DNA of 59,113 nt. Origin: an uncultured Eubacteriales bacterium. GTDB taxonomy: Bacteria > Bacillota > Clostridia > Lachnospirales > Lachnospiraceae. Of this stretch, positions 8,971 through 24,214 are shown piece by piece; position 1 is the stretch's first letter; every line of letters begins with the position of its first letter. The notes beneath the pieces were generated by a model. The model was not told where the DNA came from, made no database searches, and worked only from the letters and a program-made list of their open reading frames with translations. Position numbers and translations under genes: made by a program. The stretch lies in assembly GCA_949292785.1 (NCBI GenBank), contig CASFBK010000018.1:1-59113 (forward strand), written 5' to 3'.

Positions 8971-11418
8971 ATGGATAGAAACAGATTTTATATAGAAAAA
9001 ATAAGATTTCATCTTCAAAAAGAAAATACCTTGCTCATACGCGGCTGGTATCCACAGGACAACCCTCAGGGACGGCAAGTGAAAGTATTTTTGGATAATC
9101 AGGAGCTTCCTGGTACAGTAAAAATAAACAGCGGCGTTACCGTTCGTCAGCGTTATCTGCGCTATCAGGAAAATATCAGTGAAGAACTGACGATAGAGGT
9201 AGCACTACCGGAAGACTGGCAGACAAAAAAGCAGTTGTCCATCGTAGACACTAGAAAAACAGCAGAGTGGCAGATTATGAAGCTAACCGTAAAGCAGCTG
9301 AAGAAGAAACAGTCTGGTCTGGAATACTTTATTGAGACTACGAATGTTTCCGAAAATGTGCTTACCATTAGCGGCTGGGGAATGGGCGCAGAAGAGCTGA
9401 AGGTAAATCTGAAAATAGATGGAAAGCCGGCATCCGACATTCAGATAAAGAAGAATTACCGCCGGGATGTGATGGAAGTATTTGAGGAGGCGCCTGAAAA
9501 ATACGAAGCAGGATTCCAGATATCTGTTCCGGTAAAGAGAGCAAAAAAGCTGGAAGTTGTGTTAGAATCCGGAACGAAAAGAAGTGTTTATAAGACCTCA
9601 ATGTCAGCTGCGGCAAGTGGAAAAGGAAGTGCGGCTGCACTAAATGCTTTTCAGAAGTTCTTTATATATTGTAAAAAAGAAGGAATTTCAGCAACAATCA
9701 ATAGAATTCGGGTTAAATTGTTTCACAAAAAGGACACGTTCACTTATGAACGGTGGCTGAAGGACAATCAAATAACTAGAGAAGAATTGGAAGAGCAGCG
9801 TAAAGAAAAATTCGATTACAATCCCAAATTTAGCATTGTGGTACCGCTCTTTCAGACAAAAGAGATATATTTACGGGCATTAATTGAGTCTATTGTAACT
9901 CAGACCTATAGAAACTGGGAGATATGTCTGGCGGATGGGAGCGGAGCCAATAGTCCGTTAGAGAAAATCGTAACAGAATATCAGAAAAAGGGTTTGAACA
10001 TCACTTATCATATATTAGAGGAAAATAAAGGAATTTCTGAAAATACCAATGCAGCTATCCGAATGGCAACCGGAGAATACATTGTTCTGGCAGACCATGA
10101 CGATATGCTGGCAGAAAATGCGCTGTATGAATGTGCTAAGGCAATCAATTTGAATGAAAATGTGGATGTTTTATATTCTGACGAGGATAAAATAGACATG
10201 GTAGGGAAAAAATATTTTGACCCTAATTTCAAGCCGGACTTAAACATCGACCTGCTTTGCAGCATGAATTATATCTGCCATTTGTTTGTAGTAAAAAAAT
10301 CTGTGATCGACAAGGTTGGTATGCTGCGCAGTGAATTTGACGGCGCACAGGATCATGATTTTATTCTGCGTTGTGTAGAAGCCGCAAAGAGAGTATATCA
10401 TATTCCAATGGTGCTGTATCACTGGAGATGTCATATTAATTCCACAGCGGCAAATCCGGAAAGCAAGCTTTATGCTTTTGAAGCAGGAAGAAAAGCCGTA
10501 GAAGAGCATTATAGGAGAATTGGTGTTCCGGCAAAGGTGGAGCACAGCAGCTTCTATGGAATGTTCCGCACGAAATACTGCTGGCAGGAACAGCCATTGA
10601 TTTCTATTATTATTCCTAATAAGGACCACGTGGAAGATTTAAAGAAATGTATGGAATCTATCGAACAAAAGTCTGTTTATCGTAACTTTGAATTTGTGAT
10701 AGTGGAAAATAATAGTACCGAGGAAGAAACATTTCCATATTATAAGGAACTGGAGCAAAAAGAAAACGTTCAGGTGGTTTATTATAAAGGTGGATTTAAT
10801 TTTTCAAAAATCAATAATTACGGTGCAACATATGCAAAAGGCGAATATTTATTACTGCTAAATAATGACACGGAGATTATCAATCCTGAGTGTTTAGAAG
10901 AATTGTTAGGCTACTGTATGCGTGAGGATGTCGGAATCGTTGGAGCAAAGCTGTGCTATGAAGATGATACGATTCAGCATGCAGGAGTAGTCATTGGATT
11001 TGGTGGAATGGCAGGACATGCTTTCATTGAATCTTCCAGATATGATACAGGATATATGGGGCGTATTATGTGCGCCCAGGATTATTCCGCGGTAACCGCA
11101 GCATGTATGATGACAAAGAAGGGCGTATTTAACGAGGTTGGAGGATTGACAGAAGAGCTGGAAGTTGCCTTTAACGATATTGATTATTGTCTGAAGGTGC
11201 GGGAGCTTGGAAAGCTTGTAGTATACAATCCTTATGCAGAACTGTACCATTATGAATCAAAGTCCAGAGGCATGGAGGATACGCCGGAAAAGGTAGAACG
11301 CTTTAACAGTGAAGTAGCAAAGTTCTGCGAGCGTTGGGAAGAGATTCTAAGAAAGGGAGACCCTTACTATAATCCGAATTTAACATTGGATAAGGCAGAT
11401 TTTTCGTTAAGGGTATAG
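8971..11418 (+). CDS. Two-domain family 2 glycosyltransferase with N-terminal beta-rich region
   Basis: 815 residues. Residues 1-~215 form a beta-rich region of two similar parts, not recognised but unlike a GT fold. The first GT-A domain starts near residue 287 (FSIVVPLFQTKEIYL) and carries ADHDDM and YSDEDKID. The second starts near 541 (PLISIIIPNKDHVEDL) with VIVENNS, LLLNNDTEI and the HAG/HYESKSRG features of rhamnan-type GT2 enzymes. It is probably cytoplasmic and builds a rhamnose-rich or related wall polysaccharide from nucleotide sugars. The next gene, 23 nt downstream, is a paralog lacking the N-terminal ~220 residues. Sugar specificity cannot be read from sequence. Confidence 0.85.
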   Translation: MDRNRFYIEKIRFHLQKENTLLIRGWYPQDNPQGRQVKVFLDNQELPGTVKINSGVTVRQRYLRYQENISEELTIEVALPEDWQTKKQLSIVDTRKTAEWQIMKLTVKQLKKKQSGLEYFIETTNVSENVLTISGWGMGAEELKVNLKIDGKPASDIQIKKNYRRDVMEVFEEAPEKYEAGFQISVPVKRAKKLEVVLESGTKRSVYKTSMSAAASGKGSAAALNAFQKFFIYCKKEGISATINRIRVKLFHKKDTFTYERWLKDNQITREELEEQRKEKFDYNPKFSIVVPLFQTKEIYLRALIESIVTQTYRNWEICLADGSGANSPLEKIVTEYQKKGLNITYHILEENKGISENTNAAIRMATGEYIVLADHDDMLAENALYECAKAINLNENVDVLYSDEDKIDMVGKKYFDPNFKPDLNIDLLCSMNYICHLFVVKKSVIDKVGMLRSEFDGAQDHDFILRCVEAAKRVYHIPMVLYHWRCHINSTAANPESKLYAFEAGRKAVEEHYRRIGVPAKVEHSSFYGMFRTKYCWQEQPLISIIIPNKDHVEDLKKCMESIEQKSVYRNFEFVIVENNSTEEETFPYYKELEQKENVQVVYYKGGFNFSKINNYGATYAKGEYLLLLNNDTEIINPECLEELLGYCMREDVGIVGAKLCYEDDTIQHAGVVIGFGGMAGHAFIESSRYDTGYMGRIMCAQDYSAVTAACMMTKKGVFNEVGGLTEELEVAFNDIDYCLKVRELGKLVVYNPYAELYHYESKSRGMEDTPEKVERFNSEVAKFCERWEEILRKGDPYYNPNLTLDKADFSLRV

Positions 11419-11441
11419 AAAAGAGTAAGAAGGAAAAGGAT

Positions 11442-13301
11442 ATGAAAATTACACCATACCGAATCGTAAAAGGATTCAAATATTTAAAACACTATGGTCC
11501 CAAAGCCTTCTGGGCGCGTCTCCTTGACCGGATGGAGCCGGAAGAAGTACCATACGAGCCTTGGTTTGAATATTACAAAGCCAGTGAAGAAGAATTGGAA
11601 AAGCAGAAAAAGAAGGAAAAAAAGTTTTCCTATCGCCCGGTCATTAGTATTGTGGTGCCTGCCTTTCAAACCCCGGAAAACTATCTTGTGGAAATGTTGG
11701 AATCGGTATACAAGCAGTCCTATTCCAACTGGCAGTTGTGCATAGCAGATGCCAGCCCATCGGAAGAAGTGAAAAAATCTGTAGATGCTTTTGTTCAGGA
11801 AAAGCAGGAAACCAGAATCATCTACAAACATCTGGAAAAGAATTTAGGAATTGCAGAAAATACCAATGCAGGGCTTGAAATGGCAACCGGTGCATGGATA
11901 GGACTATTAGACCATGATGATTTACTGGCACCGGAGGCACTGTTTGAAATGGTGGAAAAAATGAATCAGAATGCTGATTTTGAAGTGATTTATTCCGATG
12001 AGGATAAGATTACAGAGGGAAAGCGGGGAGAGTGGAAGCATTCCCAGCCCCATTTCAAACCTGATTTCAGCATAGATTTGCTGCGTTCTAATAATTACAT
12101 TACACACTTTTTATGTGTAAAACGAAATGTATTAGAAAAGATAGGTGGATTTCGTCGGGAATTTGATGGTGCCCAGGATTATGATTTTATTTTGCGTTGT
12201 ACAGAAGAAGCAAAAAAAGTGGGACATGTATCTAAGGTGTTGTATCACTGGCGGGTACACCGCAGCTCCACGTCAGATAATCCCATGAGTAAAAAATATG
12301 CCTATGATGCCGGTCAGCGTGCTATTGAAGAGCACTTAAAGCGTATGGGACAGCAGGGGACGGTAAGTCAGCGGAAGTTTTTTGGGTTCTATCGGGTGAA
12401 ATATCAGGTGCAGGGAAATCCGTTGATTTCCATTCTGATTCCCAACAAAGACCAGGCAGGAACATTGAAACGCTGTATTGCGTCTGTTGAGAAGTCAACG
12501 TATCAGAATTATGAAGTGATTATTATAGAAAATAACAGCGAGGAACCGGAAACTTTTGAGTATTATGAAACTCTTTGTCATGCAAAATATGAAAAAGAAG
12601 CAGAGGGAATCTCCTGTGAAGGGAAATTGTCTGGCGGTCAGAGGATAAAGGTTGTGACATGGAAAGAAGGATTTAATTATTCTGCCATCAATAACTTTGG
12701 AGCTTCCTTTGCGTCGGGAGAATATCTGATTTTGTTGAACAACGATATTGAATTGATTACAAGAGACTGGATGGAAGAGATGCTGGGAAACTGTCAGCGG
12801 CCTGAAGTGGGAATTGTAGGAGCAAGACTTTATTATCCGGATAATACCATTCAGCATGCAGGAATTGTAGTTGGAATAGACGGAATCGCGGCCAATATGT
12901 TTCCCGGAATGAAGCGGGAACGGGAAGGCTATATGCATAGAGCCGCTACCCAGTTGAATTATAGTGCTGTCACCGCTGCCTGTATGATGATAGAAAAGAG
13001 AATCTTCGATGAAGTAGGCGGATTAGATGAGGTACTTACCGTTGCATTTAATGACTTGGACTTGTGTCTTCGTGTAGGAGTTGCCGGATATCTGGTGGTT
13101 TATAATCCGTCGGTGGAGGCGTATCATTACGAGTCAAAGAGCCGCGGGAAGGAAGATACCAAGGAAAAGGTCCGAAGATTTGGCGACGAGATTGAATTCA
13201 TCCGCACCCGTTGGATTAAGCTGCTGAAAGAAGGAGACCCGTATTATAATTCCAATTTTTCCCTGAAAAAGTGTAATTATGCCTTGAAACCATATAAGTA
13301 G
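11442..13301 (+). CDS. Two-domain family 2 glycosyltransferase, paralog of the preceding gene
   Basis: 619 residues. GT-A domains start near residue 66 (VISIVVPAFQTPENYL, then LLDHDDLLAPEAL and YSDEDKIT) and near 325 (PLISILIPNKDQAG, then ILLNNDIELI). It keeps QHAGIVVGIDG, CMMIEKRIFDEVGG and YHYESKSRGKED in the same order as the upstream protein. The linker between the halves has a short insertion (CEGKLSGGQ). Tandem paralogs of this kind usually make successive linkages of one repeat unit. Downstream spacing of 12 nt to the small DMT gene indicates one operon. Confidence 0.85.
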   Translation: MKITPYRIVKGFKYLKHYGPKAFWARLLDRMEPEEVPYEPWFEYYKASEEELEKQKKKEKKFSYRPVISIVVPAFQTPENYLVEMLESVYKQSYSNWQLCIADASPSEEVKKSVDAFVQEKQETRIIYKHLEKNLGIAENTNAGLEMATGAWIGLLDHDDLLAPEALFEMVEKMNQNADFEVIYSDEDKITEGKRGEWKHSQPHFKPDFSIDLLRSNNYITHFLCVKRNVLEKIGGFRREFDGAQDYDFILRCTEEAKKVGHVSKVLYHWRVHRSSTSDNPMSKKYAYDAGQRAIEEHLKRMGQQGTVSQRKFFGFYRVKYQVQGNPLISILIPNKDQAGTLKRCIASVEKSTYQNYEVIIIENNSEEPETFEYYETLCHAKYEKEAEGISCEGKLSGGQRIKVVTWKEGFNYSAINNFGASFASGEYLILLNNDIELITRDWMEEMLGNCQRPEVGIVGARLYYPDNTIQHAGIVVGIDGIAANMFPGMKREREGYMHRAATQLNYSAVTAACMMIEKRIFDEVGGLDEVLTVAFNDLDLCLRVGVAGYLVVYNPSVEAYHYESKSRGKEDTKEKVRRFGDEIEFIRTRWIKLLKEGDPYYNSNFSLKKCNYALKPYK

Positions 13302-14157: not shown

Positions 14158-14940
14158 ATGGATAAGAAGAGAAAGAAAAATATTATTATTCTTGGTCTAT
14201 TGATTCTAGTGTTTGTAGTTAGTGTGGGATTTATTATAGGCTACTATATAAAACAGAAAAAAGCAGAGAATGAGTACGAGGAAATCAAGGAAAAGGCAAA
14301 GATTTCTGTTGAGAAAGAAGTAAAAGAACCGGAAAGAGAGTCAGAGGAACCGTATGAAAGCCCCATCGATTTTGAAGAATTGTGGAAAACAAATGAGGAA
14401 ATTTATGCTTGGATTCAAATACCGGGAACAGATATTGACTACCCCATCGCGCAACGGGCAGATGATGATGCATACTATCTGAACCATACCATTGAAGGGA
14501 CAGAGGGACTTCCCGGCTCAATTTATACGGAAGCTGTAAATAGCAAAGACTTTACGGACTTTAATACCGTAATCTATGGACATAATATGAAGAACGGAAG
14601 TATGTTTGCAGGACTTCATAAGTATGAGGACAAAGAATTTTTAGAAGAAAATCCATATGTATACATTTATCTGCCGGATAAGACTTTAAAATATCAGATT
14701 TTTGCAACAGTAGTATTTGATGATCGTCATATTATGCATAGTTTTGATTATAGTACACCAGAAGGGTGTCAGGAATTTTTGGACGAGCTAAAAGCAGTTC
14801 AAACTATGGAATCTACTTATGATGATACAGTAGAAGTGACAACAGACAGTAATATAATTACACTTGCAACCTGTATAGGAGGACAGCCGGATAACAGATG
14901 GCTGATAGAGGCGGTATTAATAAACGATGGAGCGGAATAG
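14158..14940 (+). CDS. Class B sortase
   Basis: 260 residues with an N-terminal membrane anchor (residues ~7-30) and an acidic/basic linker. The sortase domain runs from ~residue 75 (FEELWKTNEEIYAWIQIPGTDIDYPI) to the end. Catalytic residues are visible: His142 in YGHNMKNGSMF, Cys239 in LATCIGG and Arg247 in DNRW. The DIDYPI and YGHNM patterns fit class B. It would transpeptidate a surface protein to peptidoglycan on the outer face of the membrane. None of the surface proteins in this window has an NPxTN or LPxTG tail, so its substrate is elsewhere or lost. The RBS is AGGAGGAG. Confidence 0.9.
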   Translation: MDKKRKKNIIILGLLILVFVVSVGFIIGYYIKQKKAENEYEEIKEKAKISVEKEVKEPERESEEPYESPIDFEELWKTNEEIYAWIQIPGTDIDYPIAQRADDDAYYLNHTIEGTEGLPGSIYTEAVNSKDFTDFNTVIYGHNMKNGSMFAGLHKYEDKEFLEENPYVYIYLPDKTLKYQIFATVVFDDRHIMHSFDYSTPEGCQEFLDELKAVQTMESTYDDTVEVTTDSNIITLATCIGGQPDNRWLIEAVLINDGAE

Positions 14941-15356: not shown

Positions 15357-17201
15357 GTGGACGGAATCGGAAAAATTATTTATAAAGAAAGAGAGCGGGC
15401 AAAGATTCCACAAAATGAATTGTGTGCAGGGATATGCTCGATGACTACTTTGTCCAGATTAGAGTGGCAAGAAAAAAATATTGGTAAGTGGACGATTGAC
15501 GCTTTTTTGCAGCGGCTTGGGAGATCACAGGACAAATTTTGGACCATTGTTCATATTGGAGATTATGAATTGATGGAACTGAGAAGAAAAATCTGGAATA
15601 ATATTTTATATGGAAGCTGTGAAGAGGCCCAAAAGGATATTCAGAAGTATCGTGCCAGTGTTAATATAGAAAATCTTCATGAGCAGTTCCTGAAAAAATG
15701 TCTTGGAATGATGAAAGGAAAGCGGGAAAATGACTGGGAAGCAGCATTGGAACTCTTTCAGGAAGCAATCGAAAGAACAGTGCCCGAAATAGAACTGGAC
15801 AAATTGGAAGGAATTCTAATAGGAAGAGATGAAATGCAGATTATTCTGCTAATGGCAGAGGCATATTGTCATTTGGGAAAAGAAGACCTTGCACAGAAAA
15901 TAGTGGAAAAGCTTTTGGAAAATATCCAAAGGAAAGACTGGGATGAGGAAGAACTGGTTAAGATTTATCCGAAAGTGGTAAGTGTCTATATAAACTTTTT
16001 GAAAAAAGAGGATAGATATGAGGAGGTTATTCTTATTTCTAAAAAGGCAATAGGAATGTTGGTTGATAATGTAATTATATTTTTGTTGGCAGAGTTAATG
16101 GAAGCGGCTGTCTGGGGGTTGGAAAGGCGTAAGAAGATAGAAGAGAGACGTTTTTCTATTGTTGAAGAACAGGAGTATATCCAACTTAAACAGAACATAG
16201 TAGTATTAAAAGAATTGTGGGAGGAATATGGAAATTTTCCAGAAGAATATATGTTATATTGCACCAATGTGCAAAAGGATATTAGTGTAAGTAATGAGAT
16301 TATTGCAAAATGTCGAAAACTATGTAACCTGTCTCAGGAAAAGTTAAGTGAGGAGGTTTGTAGTGTGGAGCAGTTTTCCAGAATAGAAACTGGAAAATGT
16401 TCGCCTATGGAAAAGAGCTATCGTGCATTAATGGAGAAGATGAATCAGGCACAGGAAAGAAACCGGTTTTTCATTAATGCCCAAGAATACGATTTACATG
16501 AAAAAATGCGGCAAATAGAAAAGAAACTTGGTGTGCAGGAAATCAAAAAGGCAACGGAGGAGTGGAAAAAGCTTAGGGGAAAAATATCAGATGATACCTT
16601 GAATAATCAACAGTATATTGCCAGATACGATGCTATTATGAATCTGCACAATAAGGTAATAAATCAGGAAAAGTACATACAGGAGTTAGAGGATGCATTG
16701 CGTCTTACTATGCCGGAATTTGAAACGGTAGATATTAAGAACTGGCCGTTGTCACGGAATGAAATTATCTTATTGAATAATATTGCAAACTCATACTATC
16801 TGTCGGGCAGAGTAGAAGATGCAAAGCATATTTATTATGCGCTTTGGGATACCATTGGAGAGAGTCGTACCGAGAGAATATATCATATTACTGGATATCG
16901 GTTATTGGCTTATAATATGGGATTGATGGAAGGGCTGGAGGAAAACTATAGTAAGGCAAAAGAAATTTTAGAATGTGGAATTCGAAGCAGTATGTTAGCT
17001 GGAAGGGATGAATTATTACCAAGGTTTCTGTATTGTCTTGGATGGGTAATAAAAAAAGAGGGCAGAAAGGAAAATGACAAAAAAGCCCGCTATATTGTAA
17101 AACAGGCTTTTTATATTGCTGATTTGTTAAAATTACCTAATCTCTCCAATGAAATTTGCAATTATTATGAAGAGGAGTGGTATGATAAACTTACATACTA
17201 A
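15357..17201 (+). CDS. Tandem HTH-TPR transcriptional regulator (RRNPP-like), two fused units
   Basis: 614 residues from a GTG with GAAGG upstream. Residues 1-60 are an XRE-type HTH (IGKIIYKERERAKIPQNELC...LSRLEW). After ~250 helical TPR-like residues a second HTH appears near 312-365 (CRKLCNLSQEKLSEEVC, FSRIETGKCSP) with its own helical tail. The halves are homologous: TVPEIELDKL...GRDEMQIILLMAEAYCHLGK in the first matches TMPEFETVDI...SRNEIILLNNIANSYYLSGR in the second. So it is an internal duplication of an HTH-TPR unit like those of Rgg/PlcR-type regulators, which bind exported signal peptides after re-import. Its stop overlaps the stop of a small secreted-peptide gene on the other strand by 4 nt. 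Targets are unknown; neighbouring envelope genes are candidates. Confidence 0.8.
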   Translation: MDGIGKIIYKERERAKIPQNELCAGICSMTTLSRLEWQEKNIGKWTIDAFLQRLGRSQDKFWTIVHIGDYELMELRRKIWNNILYGSCEEAQKDIQKYRASVNIENLHEQFLKKCLGMMKGKRENDWEAALELFQEAIERTVPEIELDKLEGILIGRDEMQIILLMAEAYCHLGKEDLAQKIVEKLLENIQRKDWDEEELVKIYPKVVSVYINFLKKEDRYEEVILISKKAIGMLVDNVIIFLLAELMEAAVWGLERRKKIEERRFSIVEEQEYIQLKQNIVVLKELWEEYGNFPEEYMLYCTNVQKDISVSNEIIAKCRKLCNLSQEKLSEEVCSVEQFSRIETGKCSPMEKSYRALMEKMNQAQERNRFFINAQEYDLHEKMRQIEKKLGVQEIKKATEEWKKLRGKISDDTLNNQQYIARYDAIMNLHNKVINQEKYIQELEDALRLTMPEFETVDIKNWPLSRNEIILLNNIANSYYLSGRVEDAKHIYYALWDTIGESRTERIYHITGYRLLAYNMGLMEGLEENYSKAKEILECGIRSSMLAGRDELLPRFLYCLGWVIKKEGRKENDKKARYIVKQAFYIADLLKLPNLSNEICNYYEEEWYDKLTY

Positions 17202-17356
17202 CAGATGCCATCAGCAAAACTAGGATGAGTGGCTACAATAGCCGATGTTGCAGAATCCGGAGCAGAAACTGCATTTATCACACCGCAAGTCAGCCCTGCG
17301 CAGACAGCGGCAGCAATAATAATAGATTTTACAGATTTAAAAACAGTTTTTTTCAT
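17198..17356 (-). CDS. Small exported peptide precursor, candidate signal for the convergent regulator
   Basis: 52 residues, read from the raw sequence. ATG is at 17356-17354 on the minus strand, with GGAGA 8-9 nt upstream, and the TAG is at 17200-17198. The N-terminus MKKTVFKSVKSIIIAAAVCAG is a signal peptide. A cleavage-like site INAVSA precedes the tail PDSATSAIVATHPSFADGIC. The tail ends in cysteine. Size and layout match Phr-type and other precursor peptides of RRNPP systems, and it converges on a TPR regulator with a 4-nt overlap of stop codons. A TTGACA lies at 17414-17409 on this strand, but no well-placed -10 is seen. It could instead be an unrelated small secreted protein. Confidence 0.7.
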   Translation of the reverse strand: MKKTVFKSVKSIIIAAAVCAGLTCGVINAVSAPDSATSAIVATHPSFADGIC

Positions 17357-17542
17357 AAGTTTTGTTCTCCTTTTATCGTTTGATGTAAGGTCATTATGTA
17401 AAAAATAGTGTCAAAAACCCATGAGCTTTGGTGAAAGAAAAAGGCAGAAAATTTCACGTGTGGAATCATGGCTTTTTTTGCAGAAATTTGTAATAATTAA
17501 AAGTTTAGGCATGAATGAGAAGGTGAGGTTTTTTAACAGAAC

Positions 17543-17616: not shown

Positions 17617-17817
17617 ATGATGAAAGTATTTATCTGCCCCGGATGCGGCAGTATGACAACAGTATCCAGAAGAAAAGAAGTGATGTGCTATAAATGTGAA
17701 GGAATTCAGATGGTTCCTTCTAAGTTAAGTTTTGCAAAATATAGTGAGATGGATGAGCAGCAGCGGAAGGATTATGCTGAAAGTTGGTTGTATATACGGA
17801 ATCGTAACAGGAATTGA
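17617..17817 (+). CDS. Small double-CxxC zinc-ribbon protein
   Basis: 66 residues: MMKVFICPGCGSMTTVSRRK then MCYKCEG, giving two CxxC/CxxC knuckles, followed by a charged helix (SEMDEQQRKDYAESWLYIRNRNRN). A single zinc ribbon is likely. It is the first gene after the promoter at 17543 and 16 nt before wecE, so it is co-transcribed with the amino-sugar gene. The function is not recognised. It could be a small regulator or an RNA- or protein-binding accessory. Confidence 0.7.
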   Translation: MMKVFICPGCGSMTTVSRRKEVMCYKCEGIQMVPSKLSFAKYSEMDEQQRKDYAESWLYIRNRNRN

Positions 17818-17833: not shown

Positions 17834-18967
17834 ATGATACATTTTAATGAACCTCCCTTTACGGGGAAGGAATTTGAATATATGAAGCAGACTGTCGAAA
17901 ATGCACATATCTGCGGGGACGGAGAATTCACGAAGAAATGCCATGCATGGTTGGAAGAAAGGATGCAAAGTCCGAAGGTATTACTGACTACATCCTGCAC
18001 GCATGCACTGGAGATGGCGGCGCTTCTTGTTAATATTCAACCGGGGGATGAGGTTATTATGCCATCTTACACATTTGCATCTACAGCAGATGCTTTTGTC
18101 ATGCGGGGAGCTAAGATTGTATTTGTAGATATCAGACCAGATACCATGAATATAGATGAGAACTTGATTGAAGAGGCAATTACAAATCGTACAAAGGCAA
18201 TCTGTGTTATGCATTATGCCGGGGTTGCCTGTGAGATGGATACGATTATGGAAATCGCAAACCGACATCATTTGGCGGTAGTAGAGGATGCAGCCCAGGC
18301 AGTAATGAGCAGTTATAAGGGAAGACCGCTGGGGAGCATTGGAGATTACGGTTGTTATTCTTTCCATGAGACAAAGAACTATTCTATGGGAGAAGGCGGA
18401 GCACTTCTGATTCGGGACATTGCTAATCGTGATAAAGCAGAGATTATAAGAGAAAAGGGAACAGACCGCAGTAAATTCTGGCGTGGAGAAGTAGACAAAT
18501 ATACCTGGGTAGATTTTGGCTCTTCTTATCTTCCAAGTGACATGAACGCAGCTTATTTATGGGCGCAGCTGGAACTTGCAGACGAGATTAATGATAAAAG
18601 ACTGCATTTGTGGAATACTTATTACAAAGAATTGTCAGATGTGGCAAAAGAAGGGAAAATAGAACTTCCCGTAGTTCCGGATGAGTGTACCCATAATGCC
18701 CACATGTTTTACATCAAAACGGACAACATCGAACAGCGCAGTGAACTAATCACATACCTAAAGGAATGTGGTGTTGGTGCAGTGTTTCACTATATCCCGC
18801 TTCATACAGTAGCTGCCGGAAAGAAATTCGGTGTATTTCATGGAGAAGACCGTTATACCACCCGGGAAAGCGAGCGTTTGCTAAGATTACCACTTCATTA
18901 CAATGTAAGTGAAGCGGACGTGCATTATGTATGTGAACAGATTAAAAAATACTATAAAAGAGGATAG
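17834..18967 (+). CDS. wecE: dTDP-4-amino-4,6-dideoxygalactose transaminase (WecE/RffA-like)
   Basis: 377 residues. The sequence follows the WecE/RffA family closely: FNEPPFTGKEFEYM, CGDGEFTKKC, LLTTSCTHALEMAALL, QPGDEVIMPSYTFASTA, FVDIRPDTMNIDE, HYAGVACEMDTIM and SFHETKNY. The PLP-binding lysine is Lys181 in HETKN, the same position as in the E. coli enzyme. HGEDRYTTRESERLLRLPL near the C-terminus is also family-typical. The reaction transfers an amino group from glutamate to TDP-4-keto-6-deoxyglucose, giving TDP-Fuc4N. The gene is followed after 2 nt by a GtrB-like polyprenyl-phosphate transferase. No rml genes for the precursor are in the window. In this organism the product presumably modifies a wall polymer rather than ECA. 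Confidence 0.92.
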   Translation: MIHFNEPPFTGKEFEYMKQTVENAHICGDGEFTKKCHAWLEERMQSPKVLLTTSCTHALEMAALLVNIQPGDEVIMPSYTFASTADAFVMRGAKIVFVDIRPDTMNIDENLIEEAITNRTKAICVMHYAGVACEMDTIMEIANRHHLAVVEDAAQAVMSSYKGRPLGSIGDYGCYSFHETKNYSMGEGGALLIRDIANRDKAEIIREKGTDRSKFWRGEVDKYTWVDFGSSYLPSDMNAAYLWAQLELADEINDKRLHLWNTYYKELSDVAKEGKIELPVVPDECTHNAHMFYIKTDNIEQRSELITYLKECGVGAVFHYIPLHTVAAGKKFGVFHGEDRYTTRESERLLRLPLHYNVSEADVHYVCEQIKKYYKRG

Positions 18968-18969
18968 TT

Positions 18970-19923
18970 ATGAAGAAACTTTCATTTGTAATTCCGTGCT
19001 ACAATTCAGAGCACACGGTAGGACATGTAGTAAATGAGATAGAGGAAGAATTTCAGGGAAATGACAGATATGAATATGAAATTATTCTGGTAAATGACGC
19101 ATCTCCCAAGGATGATACCCTTGGAGCCATTCGTAAAATAGCGAAGGAAAATCCAAGAGTAGTGGCAGTAAATCTATCTAAAAATTTTGGTCAGGATAGT
19201 GCACTGATGGCAGGATATTCTATTGCACAGGGAGAATACATTGTATCTCTGGATGATGATGGACAAAATCCGGCAGCAGAAGCATGGAAGCTTTTAGATA
19301 AGATGGAAGAAGGCTGGGACGTTGTCTTTGGAAGATACAAGGTAAAGAAACATAGTAAGTTTAAAAACTTTGGAAGTAAGGTAAATGACATTATGGCAGC
19401 AGTTCTTTTGGACAAGCCAAAGGATTTGCGGCTTTGCAGTTATTTTGCCATGGACCGTTTTGTAGTAGAGCAGATGCTAAGAGACCGTAACTCATTTCCG
19501 TATATTTGGGGATTGATTTTGCGTTCTACCAATAAAATGACCAATGTTTACATTGAACATAGAGTAAGAGAAGAGGGAAAGTCTAATTTTACGCTGATGA
19601 AGTGTCTTAAGGTCTGGTTTAATGGATTTGTAGCTTTTTCCGTAAAGCCGCTGCGTTTTTCTGCTTTGGTAGGTATCATGATTGCAATGCTGGGATTCTT
19701 TTATGGAATTTATGTAGTTGTGAAAGCAGTCTTTTTTGCAGAACCGGTGGTAGGCTGGAGTTCTCTTATGGTAGCAGTGCTGTTGCTGGGAGGAATTATT
19801 TTAATGATTCTGGGATTGCTTGGGGAGTATGTAGGGCGCATGAACCTAAGTGTTAATAATACACCACAGTATATTATTCGCGAGGTGTATCGGCAAGAGG
19901 AGGAAGGGTTAAGGAAAAATTAA
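18970..19923 (+). CDS. Polyprenyl-phosphate glycosyltransferase (GtrB/ArnC/DPM1-like)
   Basis: 317 residues. The GT2 domain starts KKLSFVIPCYNSEHTVG, with ILVNDASPKD, NLSKNFGQDSALMAGY and the metal-binding SLDDDGQNP. Two transmembrane helices follow (FSALVGIMIAMLGFFYGIYVVV and VAVLLLGGIILMILGLLGEYVG), with the membrane-proximal GKSNFTLMKCLKVWFNGF typical of GtrB/ArnC enzymes. It moves a sugar from a nucleotide to undecaprenyl phosphate on the cytoplasmic face. Starting 2 nt after wecE, it most plausibly uses the amino-sugar nucleotide. The half-DMT pair at 13314-13975 would be a fitting flippase. GtrA (24383) is another candidate. Confidence 0.88.
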   Translation: MKKLSFVIPCYNSEHTVGHVVNEIEEEFQGNDRYEYEIILVNDASPKDDTLGAIRKIAKENPRVVAVNLSKNFGQDSALMAGYSIAQGEYIVSLDDDGQNPAAEAWKLLDKMEEGWDVVFGRYKVKKHSKFKNFGSKVNDIMAAVLLDKPKDLRLCSYFAMDRFVVEQMLRDRNSFPYIWGLILRSTNKMTNVYIEHRVREEGKSNFTLMKCLKVWFNGFVAFSVKPLRFSALVGIMIAMLGFFYGIYVVVKAVFFAEPVVGWSSLMVAVLLLGGIILMILGLLGEYVGRMNLSVNNTPQYIIREVYRQEEEGLRKN

Positions 19924-19990
19924 TAGTTTTTAGATAGTTTGAGTAACTTTCTGTTATAAAATACTATTGAATATTGTTGAGGGTTATATT

Positions 19991-21409
19991 ATGTACAAAA
20001 AACAGAAAAAAAGCTGGGTAAAACATTTGGATTTTCTCCTGATTGATGTACTTTGTCTGGAGATAGCGTTTCTTATCTCCTTTTGGATAAAGTTTGGCGA
20101 AAGAGCAGTTCGTTCCTCTGTTATAAATGAATTTTATATCAGACTGGCAGTTGTGCTGTTATTGATGGATGTTTGTATTGTATTTCTATTTGAATCCTAT
20201 ACTGGGATTTTAAGGCGAAATAAGGTACAGGAGTTAAAAGCGGTTGTTGTTCATTGTAGTTTTGTCTTTGCTGCCATTACAGTATATCTGTGGGGAACAA
20301 AACAGTCAGAAATCTACTCGAGACAGGTTATTATGGTATTCTGGGGAATTGCTGTATTTATAGAATATTTTTCCCGGTGTGCCTGGAAAATCTATATTCG
20401 CCAGAGAATGATACGTGGGAAGCGTTTTTCAAAACTGATTATTATCACAGAGGAACGCTACGCTCTGGAATGTGTCAAAGAATTTCAGCATGACAGATAC
20501 AAGGAATTTGAAGTGGTAGGTGTCATTGTGGTAGATAAGAACCGCGAGGGCGAAGAAATCTACAACGTTCCTGTTGTGGCAAGTGCAGATACCTGTATGG
20601 AATATGTAAGAACCAATGTAGTGGATGAAGTGTTCATCAATGGCAATACCAGAGAGAGCAGTGAAGCATTGGCAAATGAACTGTTAGAATTAGGATGTAC
20701 GGTACATTTCAGCCTGGTACATGAATCACAGCTGATGCCCAATAAAATTGTGGAGCGTTGCGGAAGATACATGGTGCTGACCTCAAGTATGAAAATAGCT
20801 TCCACCAGACAATTATTTGTAAAACGTACTATTGATATCATAGGAAGTCTGATAGGATTGTTCTTTACGGGAATTGCATTTATTATTTTTGCTCCTGTGA
20901 TAAAGATACAGTCTCCGGGTCCCATTTTCTATTCTCAGACCAGAATTGGAAAAAACGGCAGAAGATTTAAGTTTTACAAGTTCCGTACCATGGTAGTGGG
21001 TGCAGATGCCATGAAAAAGGACCTGATGGAGCAAAACGAGATGGACGGGCTTATGTTTAAAATGGAAAATGATCCTCGAATTTTTGGAATTGGAAAGTTT
21101 ATGCGGAAGTTCTCTATTGATGAATTGCCCCAGTTCTGGAATGTATTGAAAGGCGAAATGAGTCTGGTTGGGACAAGACCTCCGACAGAAGAAGAGTTTG
21201 AACAATACGAACTGCATCACAAGGCACGTCTTGGGATTAAGCCGGGACTGACAGGAATGTGGCAGGTAAGTGGCAGAAGCGACATTAAGAATTTTGAAGA
21301 AATTGTGGCACTAGATACCCAGTATATATCCAACTGGTCACTTGGTGTGGATATTCGTATTCTGTTTCGCACCGTTTTGGTAGTATTGACGGGGAAAGGA
21401 TCATCATGA
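19991..21409 (+). CDS. Initiating polyprenyl glycosylphosphotransferase (sugar transferase)
   Basis: 472 residues from the ATG at 19991 with GAGGG 7 nt upstream. A TTG at 19967 is in frame but lacks an RBS. The N-terminal ~130 residues hold four to five membrane helices, followed by a CoA_binding_3-like domain (RFSKLIIITEERYALECV) and then the bacterial sugar transferase domain from ~residue 275: KRTIDIIGSLIGL, SPGPIFYSQTRIGKNG, FYKFRTMV, DELPQFWNVLKGEMSLVGTRPP and KPGLTGMWQVSGRS. It transfers a sugar-1-phosphate to undecaprenyl phosphate, the first committed step of the repeat unit. The downstream GT2 gene overlaps by 4 nt. Confidence 0.92.
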   Translation: MYKKQKKSWVKHLDFLLIDVLCLEIAFLISFWIKFGERAVRSSVINEFYIRLAVVLLLMDVCIVFLFESYTGILRRNKVQELKAVVVHCSFVFAAITVYLWGTKQSEIYSRQVIMVFWGIAVFIEYFSRCAWKIYIRQRMIRGKRFSKLIIITEERYALECVKEFQHDRYKEFEVVGVIVVDKNREGEEIYNVPVVASADTCMEYVRTNVVDEVFINGNTRESSEALANELLELGCTVHFSLVHESQLMPNKIVERCGRYMVLTSSMKIASTRQLFVKRTIDIIGSLIGLFFTGIAFIIFAPVIKIQSPGPIFYSQTRIGKNGRRFKFYKFRTMVVGADAMKKDLMEQNEMDGLMFKMENDPRIFGIGKFMRKFSIDELPQFWNVLKGEMSLVGTRPPTEEEFEQYELHHKARLGIKPGLTGMWQVSGRSDIKNFEEIVALDTQYISNWSLGVDIRILFRTVLVVLTGKGSS

Positions 21410-22170
21410 CAGATATTTCTATTACGATTGTTGCCTATAACGATGAAGAAGATGTAAGAAATGCGGTATGTTCCATTATGGAGCATACCGTTGCAACTAT
21501 TCAGAAGAAAATATATATTGTAGATAACAGTACAGAAGAAAATGAGCTTGAGTCTTTTACAAATCAGTGGGAAGAGGTGTGTTACCGAAGACCGGAACAG
21601 AATCTTGGCTTTGGGGCAGGACATAATTTTGTACTTTCTGAATTGGACTCTGAGTATCACGCCATTGTAAATCCGGATATCATATTAAAAGAGGACAGCC
21701 TTGGGATTCTGATGGAATTCATGAAACAAAAAGGAATCGGGATGGCGGTTCCGAGAATGGTGGATGAGAAAGGAAATTTTCAGGCGGTATACCGCAGAGA
21801 GCTTACCGTATTTGACATGGGAGTACGAATGTTTTTATCTTCTCATTTTAAGAAACGTCAGGCATATCACACCATGCAGGATATGGATTATTCCAAACCA
21901 TTTCAAGTGCCCTTTGCCCAGGGAAGCTTTTTAATGATTCGAACAGAATTATTCCGGAAAATAGGGGGATTTGATACCAGGTACTTTATGTATATGGAAG
22001 ACGCTGATTTGTGCAAGCAGGTAAATCAGTGCAGCAGCCTGTATTATTGTCCTGATACTACTGTAATTCATAAGTGGGAACGAGGCTCGAAGAAAGATAA
22101 AAGGCTCAGGCGCATACATATGACATCCATGTTTCGATATTTCTGTAAATGGGGGTGGAAGCTGTGGTAG
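21406..22170 (+). CDS. Family 2 glycosyltransferase (rhamnosyltransferase-like)
   Basis: 254 residues. The start lies in the ATGA overlap with the upstream gene. Features: ISITIVAYNDEEDVRNAV, IYIVDNSTEENEL, NLGFGAGHNFVL, HAIVNPDI, then GSFLMIRTELFRKIGGFDTRYFMYMEDADLCKQV and VIHKWERGSKKD. This is the pattern of WbbL-type rhamnosyltransferases. It should add the second sugar to the lipid-linked primer made by the preceding enzyme. Donor specificity is inferred from the family, not proven. Its end overlaps the next GT gene. Confidence 0.87.
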   Translation: MTDISITIVAYNDEEDVRNAVCSIMEHTVATIQKKIYIVDNSTEENELESFTNQWEEVCYRRPEQNLGFGAGHNFVLSELDSEYHAIVNPDIILKEDSLGILMEFMKQKGIGMAVPRMVDEKGNFQAVYRRELTVFDMGVRMFLSSHFKKRQAYHTMQDMDYSKPFQVPFAQGSFLMIRTELFRKIGGFDTRYFMYMEDADLCKQVNQCSSLYYCPDTTVIHKWERGSKKDKRLRRIHMTSMFRYFCKWGWKLW

Positions 22171-22892
22171 AACAGATGCAGGTATCCGTTGCAATGATTA
22201 CATATAATGGAGAAAAGTATTTAAGACAGCAGTTAGATTCTATTTTGTGTCAGCTGATGGAGCAGGATGAAGTGATTGTGTCGGATGATGGTTCTACCGA
22301 TGGTACAATCACTATTTTAAAGGAGTATCAGAAGAAGGATAGTCGGGTAAAAGTAGTGGAAGGACCGCGGGCAGGAATTAAAAAGAATGTGGAACATGCA
22401 TTAAAACAATGCAAAGGAGAAGTGATATTCTTAGCAGACCAAGATGATATTTGGAGAGCCAATAAAGTGAAACGGGTATTAGGGGTAATGGAGCAGGAAA
22501 ACGGTATGCTGGTCATTCATGATGCCGAAGTGTTTCGAGAACATCCGGAGCAGATTACCATGGAATCGTTCTTTGCATTTCGCAGTGCTAAAGCAGGGGT
22601 CATGAAAAATATTTTGAAAAACAGCTACATCGGCTGCTGTATGGCGTTTCGCAGAGAATTGTTAGATAAGGTAATTCCCATTCCCGACAATATAGAAATG
22701 CATGATCAGTGGATTGGAGTCTTAAGTGATTTCTATTTTGGAAAGTCCGTATTCCTAAAAGAACCTTTGTTATGTTACCGCAGACATGGCGAGAACAGCT
22801 CTGCTATGCGGCACTATGGAATAGGGAAAATGATTCGTAACAGAGTAGTATTTTGTAAGAAGTTTATGGGGAGAATTCTCCATATTTGCTAG
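22149..22892 (+). CDS. Family 2 glycosyltransferase
   Basis: 247 residues as drawn. Features: VSVAMITYNGEKYLRQQLDSIL, EVIVSDDGSTDGT, EVIFLADQDDIWRANKV, NSYIGCCMAFRRELL and MHDQWIGVL with LLCYRRHGENSS. This matches the rhamnan-type GT2 enzymes that add alpha-1,3-rhamnose. The start is uncertain: ATG at 22149 has no RBS, GTG at 22164 has GGGGGTGG correctly placed (22151-22158), and ATG at 22176 is also possible. Overlap with the upstream gene implies translational coupling. Confidence 0.85.
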   Translation: MGVEAVVEQMQVSVAMITYNGEKYLRQQLDSILCQLMEQDEVIVSDDGSTDGTITILKEYQKKDSRVKVVEGPRAGIKKNVEHALKQCKGEVIFLADQDDIWRANKVKRVLGVMEQENGMLVIHDAEVFREHPEQITMESFFAFRSAKAGVMKNILKNSYIGCCMAFRRELLDKVIPIPDNIEMHDQWIGVLSDFYFGKSVFLKEPLLCYRRHGENSSAMRHYGIGKMIRNRVVFCKKFMGRILHIC

Positions 22893-23050: not shown

Positions 23051-24214
23051 ATGTCAGATAATAGAAGAAACACACGAAGTAGTAATGTAGCACAGGGACA
23101 AAGACGGCAGCAGCCGAAAATGAGCAAGAAAGCTATGAGAAAGAAAAAAAGAAAGAGAAAAATAATTCTTCTGGCAGTGGAACTGATTCTGCTGATTGTG
23201 GTATTGGCAGGTCTCTGGTTTTGGCAGAAGTTGAGCAAAATAGAAACAGATGACACTTTTGTGGCGGAGTCGAATGAAGAGTTGACGGATGATACGAAGG
23301 ATATCTTAGGAGAATATACCACTATTGCACTGTTTGGATTGGACAACCGTGATAATGGTAATTATAAGTCCGGTAACAGTGATGTTATTATGATTGCCCG
23401 GATTGATAATGAGACCAAGGAAGTGAAGCTGGTTTCCGTATATCGTGATACCATGTTGAATATGATGGACGAAGATGACAAGGATGCTTATAGTAAAGCA
23501 AATGCAGCTTATAATATAGGCGGACCGGAGCAGGCAGTCAGAATGCTGAATGTAAATCTGGATTTGGATATTAAGGAATATGTATCCTTTGACTTTAATG
23601 CAGTAGCGGAAGCCATAGATTTATTAGGCGGCGTCGAAATAGAGATTAGTACGGCAGAAGCAGTTGCGATGCAGGGGTATCAGGAAGAAATTGCAGAAAT
23701 GACTGATAAAGATAAAGATTATTTATATCAGGGCGGTACCTATAACCTGAATGGTGTACAGGCAGTTGCTTATGCCAGAATACGTTATATAGGAAATGGA
23801 GATTTCCAGAGAACGGAACGTCAGCGTCTGGTCGTGAATAAAATGGTAGAAAAGGCGTTAGCATCCGATTTAGGAACGATAAACGAATTAATTGATACGG
23901 TATTTCCACAGATTAAGACCAGTCTTTCTAAGACGGAGATATTAAGTCTTGCGAAGGATGCCATGAATTATTCTATGGGAGATAATACAGGATTCCCATT
24001 TGATCAGGAAACCGGAAGCTATAAGGTAAGCTATCAGAGTAAAAAAGCTGATTGTGTAATACCGGCAGACCTTGCAAGCAATGTAAAACAGTTGCACGAA
24101 TTTTTGTACGGAACAACAGATTATGAGGTGACAAAGAGTGTACAGAATATCAGCGATGAAATTGTAAACCGTACAGGAGTAACAGCTCCGAAAAAGGAAT
24201 CAGAAGATGAATAG
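23051..24214 (+). CDS. LytR-CpsA-Psr (LCP) family cell-wall polymer ligase
   Basis: 387 residues. A very basic cytoplasmic N-terminus (KKAMRKKKRKRK) is followed by one transmembrane helix (LLAVELILLIVVLAGLWFW, ~residues 38-56). The LCP domain runs ~95-300, with IALFGLDNRDNG, NSDVIMIARIDNETKEVKLVSVYRDTML, YAKANAAYNIGGPE-like spacing, INLLGGVEIEI-like AIDLLGGVEIEIS, and YARIRYIGNGDFQRTERQR. The Asp and Arg residues that bind the pyrophosphate lipid are present. It transfers the finished undecaprenyl-linked glycopolymer to peptidoglycan outside the cell. Its place after the glycosyltransferases fits the last step of that pathway. Confidence 0.9.
   Translation: MSDNRRNTRSSNVAQGQRRQQPKMSKKAMRKKKRKRKIILLAVELILLIVVLAGLWFWQKLSKIETDDTFVAESNEELTDDTKDILGEYTTIALFGLDNRDNGNYKSGNSDVIMIARIDNETKEVKLVSVYRDTMLNMMDEDDKDAYSKANAAYNIGGPEQAVRMLNVNLDLDIKEYVSFDFNAVAEAIDLLGGVEIEISTAEAVAMQGYQEEIAEMTDKDKDYLYQGGTYNLNGVQAVAYARIRYIGNGDFQRTERQRLVVNKMVEKALASDLGTINELIDTVFPQIKTSLSKTEILSLAKDAMNYSMGDNTGFPFDQETGSYKVSYQSKKADCVIPADLASNVKQLHEFLYGTTDYEVTKSVQNISDEIVNRTGVTAPKKESEDE

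Follow-up and report, generated by a model that had tools for sequence, protein, structure and literature searches.

A predicted peptide quorum-sensing switch of the RRNPP type, with a double-module receptor and a shared divergent promoter region, in a member of Lachnospiraceae

In a 59,113-nucleotide (nt) stretch of the genome of an uncultured Eubacteriales bacterium affiliated with Lachnospiraceae (assembly GCA_949292785.1, contig CASFBK010000018.1, positions 1 to 59,113; hereafter the window), the gene of a 614-amino acid (aa) regulator meets tail to tail the gene of a 52-aa precursor peptide on the opposite strand. We propose, with a probability of roughly 0.8, that the two genes constitute an RRNPP-type autoinducing quorum-sensing switch with a tandem (double-module) receptor and a shared divergent promoter region. 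An initial annotation, made from the sequence alone, had already suggested a candidate quorum-sensing pair at this site. The pair comprises the following features:

15357..17201, forward strand: tandem RRNPP-like receptor/regulator of 614 aa, GTG start, TAA stop ending at 17201, domain order HTH-TPR-HTH-TPR (open reading frame (ORF) call, Pfam, AlphaFold2)
15357..16256, forward strand: N-terminal module, residues 1-300, HTH at about 4-53 followed by TPR-like helices
16257..17198, forward strand: C-terminal module, residues 301-614, HTH at about 312-361 followed by TPR helices
17198..17356, reverse strand: pheromone precursor gene, 52 aa, MKKTVFKSVKSIIIAAAVCAGLTCGVINAVSAPDSATSAIVATHPSFADGIC (ORF, Shine-Dalgarno (SD) sequence, conservation in the related genomes G005 and G008, fewer nonsynonymous (pN) than synonymous (pS) differences)
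17264..17356, reverse strand: predicted Sec-type signal peptide, residues 1-31, ending in A-x-A (VSA) (hydrophobicity heuristic and reading)
17201..17239, reverse strand: conserved C-terminal tail IVATHPSFADGIC, residues 40-52, the candidate mature signal with predicted ends

The 614-aa regulator consists of two fused RRNPP-type modules, as both halves are RRNPP-like in sequence and fold. The RRNPP-type architecture proposed in the initial annotation thus held, and so did the HTH and TPR assignments, but there are two HTH domains instead of the one assumed. The Pfam search detected HTH_3 above and TPR_12 slightly below the cut-off in the window protein, and TPR domains in the homologous receptor family as a whole. 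Sequence comparison revealed that the N- and C-terminal halves are homologous to each other. The AlphaFold2 model of the entire receptor reached a pLDDT (predicted local distance difference test) of 92.1 and a pTM (predicted template modelling score) of 0.91, and structure comparison with this model matched the modules to PlcR, Rap, ComR, and NprR. For the C-terminal module, PlcR was the nearest solved structure by both PDB sequence profile and fold. An NCBIfam search with 26 aligned receptors returned no family for the window protein and mostly generic HTH/TPR models for the others.

The stop codons of the receptor and precursor share CTAA at 17198-17201, and the ORF coordinates therefore confirm the tail-to-tail arrangement with a 4-nt overlap described initially. 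AAGGAG is located 10 nt 5' of the precursor ATG. The small ORF also looks like an exported-type precursor with a putative signal peptide and cleavage site: KK at the N-terminus is followed by a hydrophobic core and by A-x-A at the VSA/PDS boundary (hydrophobicity rule, and by eye). The peptide tails read SAIVATHPSFADGIC in the window, VTIVATHPDFIGGTY in G005 (receptor 69% identical), and VTIVATHPNFIDGVC in G008 (receptor 66% identical), and the IVATHPxFxxG tail was kept in both relatives through synonymous codon changes. The terminal cysteine had been regarded as a notable feature of the tail; we rejected this idea, as the residue is not conserved and is replaced by tyrosine in G005, one of the two close relatives. 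Whole-gene pS/pN values for the three species pairs were 0.49/0.27, 0.70/0.31, and 0.60/0.17, and the 13-codon tail was constrained as well. As pN is smaller than pS among the three closest species, we regard the ORF as probably translated and kept for its protein. A Pfam search with the 52-aa peptide found no family. According to passages of PMC10075063, the RRNPP signature comprises a receptor with TPRs, often together with an HTH, and a directly adjacent propeptide of 10-100 aa with a Sec-type signal peptide, whose mature form binds the TPR domain and alters receptor activity. The window receptor possesses both domain types, and the 52-aa precursor lies directly beside it.

The pairing recurs among homologs, which were gathered by receptor sequence alone. 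A receptor match was found in 22 of the 29 genomes of the genus sample (at 1e-10) and in 16 of the 397 genomes of the family sample (at 1e-25), 14 of the latter with long receptors, and tandem receptors also occur in two other families of the order. We compared 27 long receptors in larger fetched loci with 419 other genes in the same loci, leaving out G025:C1:3601917 (a near copy of G026), the 455-aa receptor of G329:C205, beside which no SD-preceded ORF was found, together with frames of 527 aa from G025 and G026. Under a strict rule (a convergent ORF 12-75 aa long, preceded by an SD of 5 nt or more, whose stop lies no further than 60 nt from that of the receptor), an ORF accompanied 20/27 long receptors and 29/419 control genes (Fisher p 6.1e-16), and a signal-peptide-like ORF accompanied 18/27 and 2/419, respectively (p 1.6e-23), both p values treating related loci as independent. 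Convergent pairing is thus beyond chance, and a small ORF with a variable tail beside homologous regulators, as foreseen in the initial annotation, was indeed met repeatedly, with the same position, a ribosome-binding site, a signal peptide, and in many cases the same stop overlap. The exact 4-nt overlap was seen in 10 of the 20 long-receptor loci with an SD-preceded ORF. Two loci fell outside the strict rule: in L076 (also labelled L053) the peptide stop lies 112 nt within the receptor gene, and in L065 a weak SD is combined with the same 4-nt overlap. With these two added, an adjacent peptide was found in 22/27 long receptors, two of them leaderless. In a later order-level set, a convergent signal-peptide-like ORF accompanied 6/7 long receptors, and five of these ORFs follow an SD of 5 nt or longer. 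The association was weaker for shorter receptors (single-module or split) than for long ones, with a convergent SD-preceded ORF in 9/23 and a signal-peptide-like ORF within 60 nt in 3/23. Tails are conserved in closely related receptors and differ from one receptor lineage to another.

Several individual loci are worth recording. In L081 (8679-10661), the tandem receptor is separated by an IS66 transposase gene (9010-10473) from a signal-peptide-like ORF in pheromone orientation (10515-10661); this ORF, left within the two control matches, is probably a displaced pheromone gene behind the IS66 element. L078 and L079 retain the inverted repeat described below, while the signal-peptide ORF is absent or, in L078, shrunk to MKKQSLFFYVVYH. 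In L083, L084, L085, and L121, the two modules are encoded by adjacent overlapping genes of about 300-330 aa each, possibly forming heterodimeric receptors. A tblastn search of 72,556 plasmid records with the tandem receptor gave no match. In a phage collection, four unverified human-fecal contigs gave a match, which in one case covered 98% of the query with 25% identity. Among these, L121 (split pair) and L122 (single module) bear a convergent signal-peptide-like ORF, L120 (627 aa) bears none, and L123 bears merely an 18-aa ORF. We did not adopt these matches as evidence for phage carriage.

The intergenic region upstream of the peptide gene contains two outward half-sites TCATGG, one facing the peptide gene and the other facing a divergent polysaccharide operon:

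17393..17424, reverse strand: predicted pheromone promoter (half-site TCATGG, 20 nt, CATAAT)
17419..17471, no strand assigned: predicted receptor operator, an inverted repeat with half-sites CCATGA and TCATGG
17466..17497, forward strand: predicted promoter of the divergent target operon (half-site TCATGG, 20 nt, AATAAT)

Many loci possess an inverted repeat of the type CCATGACG..CGTCATGG upstream of the peptide gene, in an extended form in several relatives, and the longest repeat exceeded first-order shuffles (at most 1/60) in 20/30 loci. Scored as the best GTCATGG on the peptide strand with at most one mismatch, the box was present in 17/24 loci. On the peptide side, a -10-like hexamer starts exactly 20 nt past the box in 15 of these 17 loci (background outside offsets 19-21: mean 1.1 per offset, maximum 5 at offset 22); the box was discovered by reading the same loci, and the offset was not used in choosing it. 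The other arm has a -10 at 19-20 nt in 12/14 loci, and 11/14 show this arrangement on both sides. The arm spacings (28, 29 in three loci, 33, 38, 39 in four, 41 in three, and 43) change in steps of about one helical turn. Outside these two sites, the 3.65-Mb genome contains no match to a stringent pattern, TCATGGNTTTTTN{13,15}ATAAT, and the reversed control gave 0 matches; as the pattern was written from the two sites of the window and matches them by construction, only the absence of others is informative.

The rightward genes, judged by their content, appear to form a surface-polysaccharide operon, which the receptor-peptide pair probably controls:

17617..17817, forward strand: short ORF, first of the predicted target operon, 66 aa with two CxxC pairs (zinc-ribbon-like), its DNA conserved in G005
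17834..18967, forward strand: DegT/DnrJ/EryC1/StrS sugar aminotransferase, predicted target (Pfam PF01041, 4e-86)
18970..22892, forward strand: remainder of the predicted target operon, with a glycosyltransferase family 2 gene (18970-19923), a bacterial sugar transferase gene (19967-21409), and two more family 2 glycosyltransferase genes (Pfam)
23051..24214, forward strand: LytR-CpsA-Psr protein for cell-wall polymer attachment, a possible member of the target operon (Pfam PF03816, 1.2e-33)

No Pfam match was found for the 66-aa ORF. G005 possesses the same sites and the same operon gene order (judged from ORF beginnings), and in G008 the receptor and promoter sites are kept next to a gene listed as a DUF4176 protein. 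Nine of ten divergent neighbours in other loci matched Pfam (radical SAM, EAL, ThiF, MFS, pyruvyl transferase, histidine kinase twice, MutS_V, and ABC), and these varied families have no single function in common. A sortase gene lies directly upstream of the receptor gene (14158-14940).

RRNPP peptides are re-imported by the oligopeptide permease. The following course, from secretion, maturation, and re-import to binding, the sign of regulation (activation, not repression), and the regulon, is one that we infer. The precursor would be exported by Sec and cleaved after the signal peptide, and a C-terminal fragment around IVATHPSFADGIC would build up with cell density. Oligopeptide permease would then bring the fragment back into the cell, where it may occupy a TPR groove of the 614-aa receptor. 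Genome-wide, Pfam detected two PF00496 oligopeptide-binding-protein genes. The receptor, with two HTH domains in one chain, is predicted to bind the paired inverted half-sites in the region that separates the pheromone gene from the divergent operon. Since a half-site lies 20 nt upstream of each -10, where a good -35 is missing, the complex would most likely act as an activator of both promoters, those of the pheromone gene (autoinduction) and of the surface-polysaccharide operon.

Besides the limits on the box and the stringent pattern given above, several points weigh against the proposed switch. The 614-aa receptor exceeds the published length of RRNPP receptors, 250-500 aa (in the same passages of PMC10075063), and with its two modules we file it as a tandem variant homologous to RRNPP and not as a canonical member. 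Five of the 27 long receptors (L066, L073, L078, L079, and L081) lack a clear adjacent peptide, the receptor frame of L066 being broken and L078 offering a doubtful 13-aa candidate. No repeat beyond shuffles was found in 10/30 loci, and the box was absent in 7/24. The repeat of the window itself has 6-nt arms and does not exceed shuffles (43/60), so support for the putative operator there comes from relatives and the pattern search. A looser pattern gave 13 matches in the genome versus 2 in the reversed control, and further targets are therefore possible. Finally, the known PlcR-family regulator TprA2 is a repressor relieved by its peptide (passages of PMC5436883), and the sign of regulation could thus be the reverse of that proposed.

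In such a reversed scheme, the pair would be the same, but the apo-receptor would sit on the half-sites over the -35 region until released by the peptide, as in TprA2/PhrA2. Both the overlap of the half-sites with the expected -35 position and the negative action of TprA2 described in PMC5436883 favour this scheme. On the other hand, the sequence found by eye 17 nt before the peptide-side -10, TGGGTT, is a poor hexamer that suits an activator-dependent promoter, and PlcR, the nearest solved relative, is titled a transcriptional activator; we thus consider repression unlikely, albeit a serious contender. The pair could also be real with its main targets elsewhere and the divergent operon regulated otherwise. 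The location of the G008 receptor and its sites beside a DUF4176 gene implies that linkage to polysaccharide genes is not fixed, and 11 of the looser-pattern matches lie beyond the two sites of the window. Nevertheless, stringent paired outward sites occur at no other genome position and G005 retains the same sites with the same operon, leaving this option distinctly unlikely.

The other two alternatives concern the repeat and the small ORF. In several relatives the arms are long and contain A- and T-tracts, as bidirectional terminators do, and the repeat may be read as a terminator or leader hairpin instead of an operator. We regard this as improbable: the repeat sits between two divergent 5' ends and not past a gene, -10 elements stand at 19-20 nt on both sides in most of the loci in which both arms were scored, the arm spacing changes by about a helical turn, and the RNA hairpin in the window is weak (z -1.67). 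Possible peptide-modification genes beside some homologous systems (radical SAM in L067 and ThiF in L070) would suit an exported antimicrobial or membrane-active peptide, the expression of which the regulator controls without any sensing. Such a peptide is very hard to reconcile with an ORF position by the receptor stop conserved across genera, with mostly acidic or neutral tails that track the receptor lineage, and with paralogs retaining just a leaderless tail of 15-16 aa.

The paralogs are second tandem receptors, encoded within the same glycan cluster of G005 (L035) and G008 (L037) and sharing 46 and 44% identity with the window receptor. Each has a convergent mini-ORF of 15-16 aa preceded by AAGGAGG, namely MCVFNFTDPEWDLDNF (4-nt stop overlap) and MILPYTDPEWDYDNF. 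Both are short ORFs beside a receptor with no signal sequence and a strong ribosome-binding site, as expected for leaderless peptides. In-frame stops directly upstream of the G008 mini-ORF rule out a signal-peptide precursor there, and in G005 the reading frame remains open upstream. Aligned by eye, the last ten residues of the paralog peptides (TDPEWDLDNF) correspond to THPSFADGIC of the window. The gene after the second receptor in both genomes (619 aa) resembles the window glycosyltransferase at 11442-13301. The second receptor is absent from the window (11418-11442), where a gap of about 24 nt separates two glycosyltransferase genes; in G005 this place is taken by the receptor and one additional gene. 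L035 and L037 have their own inverted repeats, and the L035 box differs (CCAGAG..CTCTGG, by eye).

The window genome also encodes two single-module receptors, L038 (contig C20) and L039 (contig C11). L038 is accompanied by a convergent signal-peptide-like ORF (...STYGFYLAIEGQ) with a histidine-kinase gene further on, and L039 by the leaderless MVNANILFRPLDDVEEMF. In each, a CATGG box stands at a distance of 20 nt from a -10; L038 belongs to the counted loci, and the box of L039 was recognised by eye. Among the single-module receptors of the genus, the tail GFFLG(D/N)V(E/I)ET(Y/F) occurs with a signal peptide in L087 and L088 and in leaderless form in L089, L090, L093, and L094. On the tree of 45 receptor modules (34 labelled), the leaderless label needs three changes, at least two of which are forced by supported branches. 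The precursor type thus appears to have changed at least twice on the receptor tree, gains and losses not being distinguished.

RRNPP transcription factors are generally taken to act as homodimers. We lean slightly toward regarding the tandem-fused receptors as a distinct quorum-sensing branch, in which single-chain pseudo-dimers would act at a shared divergent promoter through its paired half-sites, pheromone stops touch or overlap the receptor gene, and the wider clade would switch one pheromone type between Sec-exported and leaderless forms; the 250-500 aa default of a published detector would miss the tandem form. Literature surveyed by title and abstract start, a weak test of absence from print, contained no tandem HTH-TPR-HTH-TPR pheromone receptor, and 'Lachnospir' was not found in the searched passages of PMC10075063, PMC9765709, PMC10518010, and PMC12700828. 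If our proposal is correct, a scattered set of these bacteria gains a concrete peptide language that can be tested, as its signals, receptors, promoter sites, and targets are all predicted, and a pheromone type that occurs both exported and leaderless would illustrate how the export route of a signal can change while its code stays the same. The tandem receptor also poses a sharp structural question, as two unlike modules stand in one chain here versus in adjacent genes in L083, L084, L085, and L121.

PlcR-PapR of the Bacillus cereus group consists of an HTH-TPR receptor and an exported precursor peptide and acts on a compact PlcR box. The C-terminal module of the window receptor is nearest to PlcR, as noted above, but the window receptor comprises two fused modules and its inverted TCATGG half-sites are about 40 nt apart, unlike the single HTH-TPR chain and compact box of the PlcR subfamily. 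TprA and TprA2 possess a single HTH-TPR module, and the double-module receptor of the window departs from the TprA lineage in this respect. According to passages of PMC5436883, the PlcR-like regulators of TprA/PhrA and TprA2/PhrA2 in Streptococcus pneumoniae are each accompanied by an opposite-strand gene for a small peptide with an active C-terminal heptapeptide, and TprA2 represses a lanthionine-peptide gene; the window pair, which is convergent, shares this opposite-strand layout. The leaderless communication peptides of RopB are described in parts of PMC10518010 as 8-9 aa, aliphatic/aromatic, and divergent from ropB, with longer precursor forms suggested. The G005 and G008 paralogs resemble them in having leaderless genes with strong ribosome-binding sites, but their mini-genes are acidic, convergent, and paired with a tandem receptor of the window's family. 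The Rgg receptor is a single module. In S. pneumoniae D39, Rgg/SHP peptide quorum sensing directly induces surface-polysaccharide genes at the capsule locus (abstract of PMC5597970); control of surface polysaccharide is likewise predicted for the window, whereas the Rgg-class receptor and SHP pheromone set that system apart.
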